A stretch of DNA of 64,000 nt from NCBI RefSeq assembly GCF_024305245.1, contig NZ_JAMWYX010000002.1:320264-384263 (forward strand), given 5' to 3'. Positions 56,148-58,211 of this stretch are shown here, in pieces. Origin of the DNA: Erythrobacter sp. GTDB lineage: Bacteria; Pseudomonadota; Alphaproteobacteria; Sphingomonadales; Sphingomonadaceae. A program made the translations under genes and the position numbers. Position 1 is the first letter of the stretch, and every line of letters begins with the position of its first letter. The notes under the pieces were generated by a model. It was not told where the DNA came from, made no database searches, and saw only the letters and a list, made by a program, of their open reading frames with translations.

Positions 56148-56537
56148 ATGACCCAGCGCAGTCTTTTCCCGGCCGGGCGCAATCAGCCCTCGGGCGCGCT
56201 CGATCCGGTGGCCGAGCCAGAGCCTGCCACTCCGGCCAGCGTAAATCGTCAGGAAGCGATCCAGCGATTGCAGATCGGGGTGTTCGGCATCGCCGCCATG
56301 CTGCTGCTGGTCGGTCTAGCCAGCATCATCGGCAGTCAGGCCGATTTTACCGAGCAAGCCGCCGTCCCCGAAGCCGCGCCCACCACCGAGCCGACGCCTG
56401 AACCGTCGCGCGCCAATCCGCTGGCCGATGCCGGTGTTGTGCCGGACATCGCGGTCGAGCCGAGCCCCACGCCGGCGATCCCGCTCGACTTGCCGCCGCC
56501 AGCCCCTGCGCCGGATAATGCGCCAGATCCGCAATAG
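56148..56537 (+). CDS. Single-span membrane protein with Pro-rich tail
   Basis: About 129 residues from ATG 56148 (MTQRSLFPAGRNQPSG), or 141 from the GTG at 56112. One span (IGVFGIAAMLLLVGLASIIG) and a periplasmic Pro/Ala/Glu tail. No family recognised. It overlaps the following lipoprotein gene by 20 bases. Confidence 0.7.
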   Translation: MTQRSLFPAGRNQPSGALDPVAEPEPATPASVNRQEAIQRLQIGVFGIAAMLLLVGLASIIGSQADFTEQAAVPEAAPTTEPTPEPSRANPLADAGVVPDIAVEPSPTPAIPLDLPPPAPAPDNAPDPQ

Positions 56538-57318
56538 AACCATCGCCTCGCTGGTCGGCGCAGTGCTGGCGCTGGCCGCCTGCAGCGCCGCCCCGACGGA
56601 ACCTGCCAATCTGGAACCGGCCAGCCCGGAACCTGCCAGTGATGCGCGTCCGCCGCTGGGGCTGATGAGCAGTCTGCCGCTCTACTGGCCGGCGGATGCC
56701 GATATCGCTGACATTGCCGCTGATCGGGCCGCCCCGCCGTGGCAGCGCCGCGCGATCGAGACACGCTATCGGCCGGTGCCGCTCGACACGCTGACCCCCA
56801 TTCCCGCGCTATCCCCCGACACGCCCGAAACCGACCCGCTGGCGGATCTTGACCGGTTGGCGGTGATCCAGCCGCGCGGGCTTTCGCCCGGCGATAATGT
56901 CGCGCTCGACGCATGGGTGCGGGGCGGGGGAAGCCTGTTGCTGGTGCTCGATCCGGCAACGACCGGGGATTACGACTTGCCGCTGGGCGATCCGCGCCGC
57001 CCGGTCGAAACCGCGCTGATCCCGCCGGTGGTCGAACGCTGGGGGCTGGCGGTCAGCTTTGACGAGCGGCAGGCGCTGGCGGTGGCCGATGCGTCGCTCG
57101 GCGGAGCCGCACTGCCGCTGGCGCTGCCGGGCCGTATCGCTGTGACCGATCCCGCCGCAGCCGATTGCACGCTGGCAGCAGAAGGCGCGGCGGCGGCGTG
57201 CCGGGTGGGCAAGGGCAGGGTCACTCTGATCGCCGATGCCGCGCTGTTCGAACATCCCGAACTGGCGGGCGAGAACGGACAAACCCTCGCCGGATTGCTG
57301 GCCGCCGCCTTCGAATAG
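56518..57318 (+). CDS. Lipoprotein with GldG/DUF4350-like domain
   Basis: 266 residues from ATG 56518. Signal and lipobox ALAACSAAP. The body (DLDRLAVIQPRGLSPGDNVALDAWVRGGGSLLLVLDP, later GKGRVTLIADAALFEHPEL) fits the DUF4350/GldG fold seen in ABC-associated envelope proteins; no ABC partner lies nearby. The match is by pattern only. Last gene before the dcw leader. Confidence 0.7.
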   Translation: MRQIRNRTIASLVGAVLALAACSAAPTEPANLEPASPEPASDARPPLGLMSSLPLYWPADADIADIAADRAAPPWQRRAIETRYRPVPLDTLTPIPALSPDTPETDPLADLDRLAVIQPRGLSPGDNVALDAWVRGGGSLLLVLDPATTGDYDLPLGDPRRPVETALIPPVVERWGLAVSFDERQALAVADASLGGAALPLALPGRIAVTDPAAADCTLAAEGAAAACRVGKGRVTLIADAALFEHPELAGENGQTLAGLLAAAFE

Positions 57319-57398
57319 GGGCGATCGGGGAAATCGCGGGACAGCCGGGACTCGGCGGGGGACTCGGGCGGGAAACACTACGGAAAATCGCGGAAAAC
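57319..57398 (+). promoter_or_regulatory. Array of GGGA boxes upstream of mraZ (+)
   Basis: Seven G(G)GGA/CGGA boxes and a final GGG have their last G at about 57327, 57337, 57346, 57358, 57369, 57380, 57390 and 57398, a spacing of 8-12 bp (one helical turn). MraZ is known to bind TGGGN repeats with about 5-bp spacers; this is a candidate operator array. Confidence 0.5.
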
Positions 57399-57716
57399 GG
57401 GTGGATCAGGGCCGGATTCGCGCGATGCCGTTCGGCAAGTATCCACTGAGCAGTGGGCTGTTGGACAAGAGGAAGGGAATAAAATCAGCGTGATAACTAG
57501 TTTTCCCGTGATTTCCCGTAAAAATCCCTTTCATCCCGCCTGCTTCCCAGATATTACCACGGTCCATCAAACATGCCTGTTTGCAACGCGTTCGGCTGGT
57601 GGGGTCGGCGCGGTGCCGCCGCTTGCCTGCTCGCGGCGACGGGGAGGGCGTGTCTGGATTACGGCCGGTTCCCTTAACGGGGCAGGCCACAACGGGGTAA
57701 GAGGGGATCGCGTCGG
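57399..57716 (+). promoter_or_regulatory. dcw leader region with opposed CCC array
   Basis: No convincing gene in the 398-bp gap before mraZ. A second array, TTCCCGTGATTTCCCGT and onward, has CCC at 57505, 57515, 57526, 57535 and 57546, i.e. GGGA boxes on the other strand at 9-11 bp spacing. An AT-rich segment (AATAAAATCAGCGTGATAACTAG) precedes it and may hold promoter elements. Confidence 0.5.
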
Positions 57717-58211
57717 GTGTCGGCTTTTGGAGGATATAGTGGCCAAGCCTTTTCGCCCGCCGGCGATAAGGGCCGCTTTGTCCTGCCGCCCGCGTTCCGT
57801 AAAGCGGTGAAGGAAAGCTCCGAAGGCAACCGCATCCTGTGCCTCGCCGCCCATGACCGTTTCGATTGCCTCGTCGGCTTCGGCCTGTCGCGCATCGCCA
57901 AACTGCACGCCCAACTCGACAATGAAGAAGAGCGCGCAATCCGCCTCGGCAGCCATGATTTCGACCGCGAAGTGCGCGCCCAGCAATTGTTCGGCTTCGA
58001 ACAGCTGCCGTTCGACGACAGCGGGCGGTTCGTCATGCCCGAACACCTGCGCGATCTCGGCAAGGTGGGCGAGGGGCTGTATTTTCAGGGCGCGGGCGAT
58101 TTCTTCTTCGTCTGGAACCCCGAAGAACTCGGCCGGATGGATACAGGCTGGAAGAGCGCGCAGGCTAGCTGTGCAAAGCTGGTCGCGGCCGCGAAGAAGG
58201 GGGCTGCGTGA
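57717..58211 (+). CDS. mraZ: Transcriptional regulator MraZ
   Basis: First gene of the division and cell wall cluster; binds repeats in its own promoter. Two AbrB-like halves each show the D-x-x-G-R-F-x-x-P pattern: [16 protein letters not shown] and [20 protein letters not shown] start gives [16 protein letters not shown]; 164 residues. The stop overlaps the rsmH ATG by one base. Confidence 0.95.

Follow-up and report, generated by a model that had tools for sequence, protein, structure and literature searches.

MraZ is among the most widespread of bacterial regulators and forms rings. The MraZ box operator of the E. coli mraZ gene was reportedly described by Eraso et al. in 2014 and the Mycoplasma operator is, to our knowledge, a lone array with neither a bend site nor a second array opposite it. 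Looping repressors that employ auxiliary operators and an architectural protein are familiar from lac, from gal (with HU) and from lambda and sigma-54 promoters (with IHF). MraZ has been described as a repressor of its own promoter in E. coli and of the division cluster in M. genitalium (PMC8475190), and the binding site given for Mycoplasma MraZ is AAAGTG[T/G] (cited in PMC8475190). In E. coli and Burkholderia cenocepacia (PMC7761207), about four boxes at 10-bp steps lie ahead of mraZ and serve autoregulation of the dcw cluster by MraZ; they form one block, placed at the transcription start or downstream of it (on the plus strand in E. coli). The locus analysed here belongs to a window of 64,000 nucleotides from Erythrobacter sp. 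(contig NZ_JAMWYX010000002.1, positions 320,264 to 384,263). It resembles these operators in box spacing, in position and in its probable role in dcw autoregulation, and its boxes share the GGG(A) core with those of E. coli. Unlike them, one block (i.e. block B) occupies the minus strand around the candidate promoter, and upstream of it is an opposed, phase-locked block (i.e. block A), the two flanking an IHF-like site (Table 1). This phase-locked double array appears to be a variant of the known MraZ operator, as set against the 2026 MraZ-DNA structures by their entry titles.

Table 1. Features upstream of and including mraZ, numbered from the first nucleotide of the window.
Feature	Position	Strand	Basis
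Upstream gene, weak ABC_transp_aux / DUF4350 matches, start codon uncertain	56428..57318	+	Profile matches
Block A, plus-strand box array	57328..57396	+	Box positions; grid kept in genus
GACTC (GANTC, CcrM-type site) inside block A	57349..57353; second at 57361-57365	.	Genus conservation
IHF-like site AATCAGCGTGATA (consensus WATCARNNNNTTR, one mismatch)	57483..57495	+	Fixed place 21 bp before first B box
Block B, five minus-strand GGGA boxes (TCCC on plus strand)	57504..57548	-	Box positions; homologous arrays elsewhere
Candidate dcw promoter within block B: TTTCAT, 17 bp, TATTAC (conserved GATATTACC)	57529..57557	+	Conservation
Putative structured 5' leader RNA, closing helix and two inner helices	57565..57659	+	Compensatory changes
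mraZ, divergent, GTG start	57717..58211	+	Profile match; predicted fold; rsmH neighbour

The product of the gene behind these boxes is, judging by profile and predicted fold, a divergent MraZ. A match to PF02381 was obtained at 26.3 bits (cut-off 23), the best NCBIfam MraZ model scored 46 bits against a cut-off of 162, and the closest relatives of the gene were 89-90% identical, which places the window in an Erythrobacter/Porphyrobacter-type member of Sphingomonadales. A sequence search of the product against the PDB gave no match. The predicted monomer model (pLDDT 93) has the double AbrB-like MraZ fold, and all 16 PDB matches at E <= 0.001 in a fold search were MraZ structures, including MraZ on a four-box promoter; MraZ-DNA complexes were the nearest. 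Mycoplasma MraZ with a four-box promoter (PDB 9sz7, 9r4j) is likewise alike in fold and is a ring-forming repressor on phased direct repeats. The next gene is rsmH (at 58208; TIGR00006, 292.7 bits), placing mraZ first in the dcw cluster. Upstream, the stop codon of the preceding gene lies about 10 bp ahead of block A in the window and mostly 5-12 bp ahead of it in the genus.

Block A contains five exact GGGA words (starting at 57328, 57338, 57347, 57359 and 57370, with steps of 10, 9, 12 and 11) and, continuing their grid, two degenerate CGGAAA boxes (57381 and 57391). Counted from the first block-B box, these seven boxes lie at -176, -166, -157, -145, -134, -123 and -113; the grid positions are also occupied in other members of the genus, with a period of 10.5-10.6 bp. 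The TCCC words of block B start at 57504, 57514, 57525, 57534 and 57545 (steps of 10, 11, 9 and 11), and the gap between the blocks is about 108 bp. The first-pass annotation had placed the plus-strand boxes correctly but had overcounted them at about eight; its five minus-strand boxes and its separation of about 110 bp agree with these measurements. Its view that the boxes far outnumber those of E. coli holds for both blocks together, but not for block B by itself, which has five. Its assignment of the boxes to the MraZ type is borne out by the identity of the gene behind them and by the likeness of the four E. coli boxes TGGGaaattgTGGGGcaaagTGGGaataaGGGG (sequence taken from locus L119) to CGGGAAATCGCGGGA here. 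Like MraZ operators, both blocks lie ahead of mraZ and consist of at least three GGG-type boxes repeated about every 10 bp. By pattern matching across the 3.5-Mb genome, three GGGA words at about 10-bp steps were found seven times, five of them within blocks A and B and the other two isolated; a reversed control pattern matched four times. Three-box arrays thus cluster at the mraZ locus only. GGGA words could in principle cluster by chance where DNA is GC-rich, but this was ruled out by the scan, its reversed control and the ranking of 4-mers described below.

Block B alone appears from its homologues to be the ordinary alphaproteobacterial MraZ operator. Among 30 loci sampled from other alphaproteobacterial families, 24 have a homologous minus-strand array ahead of mraZ, with three or more boxes spaced by 10 bp; these arrays contain 3-5 boxes, matching the five of block B, and likewise have promoter hexamers inside. 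Within the clade, block B is strongly conserved as TCCCg..A..TCCCg.AAAAA.CCCTtccatCCC. The candidate promoter that it spans was recognised by conservation, was not reported by a strict consensus promoter scan, and would be expected to start transcription near 57564. As block B spans this promoter, MraZ on block B should exclude polymerase. Across many alphaproteobacterial families (loci L173-L202), TTGAC-N17-TAT hexamers are often embedded in the minus-strand boxes, which lie on the strand opposite to that of the E. coli boxes. CenR was considered as owner of the AT-rich element, but no match to its motif (TGA-N8-TGA, PMC9275681) was seen by eye; a CenR signal at mraZ lacking the CenR motif has been reported (PMC9275681).

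Block A, in contrast, appears to be an addition confined almost wholly to the Erythrobacter-type clade of Sphingomonadales. Of the 70 genus genomes, 66 showed a plus-strand GGGA pair upstream of block B. Such a pair also occurred in most of the genera sampled whose MraZ is at least 43% identical, but in none of the 24 loci from other alphaproteobacterial families that have block B. The number of boxes per block A in the genus is mostly two to eight; in some genomes (e.g. L064, L072, L077 and L078) the pattern used recognised no block-A pair. The base preceding GGG also sets the clade apart: it is T in 75 of 86 boxes of the other alphaproteobacterial families, but in only 7% of boxes in block A and 2% in block B, where C and G mainly replace it. 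Neither block therefore shows the TGGGN form (T before GGG, as in E. coli), although the GGGA core is retained. Block B matches the TGGGA arrays of other Alphaproteobacteria in place and order and is, for that reason, described here as an operator of altered specificity. The flank profiles of blocks A and B correlate at 0.48-0.51, as against 0.08-0.29 with leader GGGA words. As the shift from TGGGA to C/GGGGA is shared by both blocks, it fits a single protein, MraZ, reading both. The clade MraZ proteins score far under the NCBIfam cut-offs and their boxes lack the T, so that protein and site may have changed together.

The two blocks keep a constant helical phase. Relative to block B, plus-strand GGGA words gave a Rayleigh z of 152.8 with a period of 10.5-10.6 bp in the genus (235 boxes, 53 genomes) and of 28.7 outside it (59 boxes, 19 other genera), and GGGA ranked first of all 4-mers tested for phasing. 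The phasing that the first-pass annotation saw in a single sequence is thus kept in relatives. The A-to-B distance itself varies from 113 to 188 bp among genomes, and does so by whole helical turns: in 81 genomes the first A pair lies near -113, -122, -134, -144, -155, -166, -176 or -187 and never between these positions (R 0.886, circular SD 0.8 bp). Mapped on a tree built from mraZ-rsmH DNA, the turn count between A and B changed at least 22 times. In 17 edge-disjoint genome pairs the distance differs by 9 to 73 bp, each time no more than 2 bp off whole turns (p about 5e-7), and fifteen other genera by themselves gave a phase p of 1.5e-5. Two control distances, from block B to the mraZ start (R 0.23) and from block A to the upstream stop codon (R 0.28), were unphased, excluding a general spacing constraint of the region. 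Shared ancestry as the sole cause of equal distances was also rejected, since the distances differ and have changed repeatedly on the tree. Conserved helical phase between sites, a property of looping operators, is therefore found here. The angle between A and B depends on the helical repeat assumed (21 degrees at 10.4 bp per turn, 73 degrees at 10.5), and for this reason placement of the blocks on the same face is not claimed.

An IHF-like site occupies a fixed place between the blocks. At exactly -21, a sequence with at most one mismatch to the IHF consensus was found in 48 of 70 genus genomes (1.3 expected) and, outside the genus, in 11 of 19 other genera (0.3 expected); about a third of the genus genomes have two or three mismatches. 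A-rich DNA precedes the site, so that the form of WATCARNNNNTTR with an A-rich flank is present at a constant position. In lineages without block A, such sites occur at chance level only. Genes for both IHF subunits, alpha and beta (ihfA and ihfB), were detected in the genome over curated cut-offs. An assisted loop would require a bend of this kind between arrays that are opposed and phase-locked.

These observations probably reflect a bipartite autoregulatory MraZ operator, in which blocks A and B would be bridged or wrapped by MraZ with the help of IHF and the dcw promoter thereby repressed. MraZ bound to block B, across the promoter, would block RNA polymerase. Block A would act as a second MraZ array, upstream, in opposite orientation and at a fixed rotational angle to block B, and IHF would bend the DNA just upstream of block B. 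One MraZ ring, or two stacked rings, could then hold both arrays in one complex (i.e. a short loop or a wrap), so that mraZ and the downstream division genes would be repressed more strongly or more sharply. We infer from the sequence comparisons that MraZ occupies block A and IHF the bend site, that the two blocks touch, and that repression results. Boxes in opposed orientation would suit, in principle, either one ring carrying an antiparallel loop or two face-to-face rings around which the DNA is wrapped continuously. The first-pass annotation had suggested looping or stacked rings; the conserved phase is as looping or wrapping requires, and the sequence allows either geometry. A loop or wrap calls for a fixed phase, but such a phase might also stem from a different protein in touch with both sites. 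As in the looping repressors (lac, gal, lambda), distant sites needing helical phase are combined with a DNA bend between them. Those repressors have one or two palindromic sites per operator, whereas here direct-repeat rows would serve an oligomeric ring, giving a similar working rather than membership of that group.

Two independent MraZ arrays were considered as an alternative, with block B covering the promoter and block A adding local MraZ or stopping read-through from the upstream gene, with no contact between them. The resemblance of block B alone to the entire operator of other Alphaproteobacteria agrees with this, as does the start of block A right after the upstream stop codon. Independent arrays need no fixed rotational distance, yet A and B have remained phase-locked through every one of the changes in turn number with the neighbouring distances unphased, making this explanation unlikely.

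Block A might instead be read by another regulator (e.g. a nucleoid protein or, at GANTC, the GcrA/CcrM cell-cycle pair) in contact with MraZ or RNA polymerase at block B by way of the IHF bend. GANTC sites were present in block A of 65 of 66 genus genomes (120 observed versus 17 expected), as compared to 3 in 3300 bp of the A-B gap, and the genome encodes GcrA and a protein with a RAMA domain (a domain of CcrM). A fixed phase would also fit an activator that touches polymerase. The phased motif of block A, however, is GGGA, an MraZ-type box whose specificity has shifted together with that of block B. The GANTC sites lie mostly outside the boxes, shift in position between genomes and are only weakly phased (R 0.48), and their enrichment is not shared by other genera with block A (4 of 15). 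Control by another regulator is consequently judged about as improbable as independent arrays, and GANTC conservation in block A appears to be a genus-level layer. In the window, the GANTC sites of block A are about 200 bp from the candidate promoter, and a third GANTC lies at 57415-57419. A tie of dcw expression to replication through GANTC is possible.

A mutational origin of the phase is still less probable. Slippage of 10-11 bp repeats could add or remove whole units, keeping phase without selection; the box repeats could slip, several neighbouring genomes differ by exactly 10 or 11 bp, and changes inside a long A array could be biased in this way. Many related genera, however, have a single-pair block A and a spacer of about 100-150 bp without such repeats, and still keep the phase; ordinary indels in such a spacer would spoil it, as they have between block B and mraZ. 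Given the single-pair block A and repeat-free spacer of several genera, selection on the rotational angle between A and B is the better explanation. Intrinsic curvature, in which A-tracts in step with the helix (GGGAAAT, AAAAA) would curve the DNA around the promoter and block A would carry no protein, would account for the phasing of AAAT and GAAA in the genus and for the A-rich spacers in block B, but is the least probable explanation of all, as the top phased word is GGGA and not AAAA and the other genera keep GGGA and CGGG but lose the A-tract words.

The bipartite MraZ operator has consequences beyond this locus. Two facing rows of boxes held in register over dozens of genomes suggest that an MraZ ring bridges or wraps DNA, so that the reason for forming rings becomes testable, and the natural variants in spacer length provide a ready set for experiment. 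The dcw operon would be linked to IHF and possibly to CcrM methylation; a literature search of open-access papers found nothing relevant on MraZ with IHF or GANTC. A tentative extension, doubtful at present, is that MraZ rings and IHF gather about 220 bp of DNA into a compact nucleoprotein complex that holds all the boxes of both opposed arrays simultaneously, on one ring or on two stacked rings, with GANTC methylation tying its assembly to replication. If so, a cell-division operon would be switched through a chromatin-like structure.

Downstream of the promoter, conservation also points to a structured leader RNA of 95 nt, ending about 57 nt ahead of mraZ. Compensatory changes were observed in 12 of 15 leader pairs among 79 distinct sequences, well above slid controls, in an alignment that was fitted to the model and is hence biased towards it. 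A comparison of the leader with Rfam gave no match. The 5' strand of the leader (CAAACATGCC) can also pair locally with TGTTTG as a hairpin, so that two alternative folds are possible.
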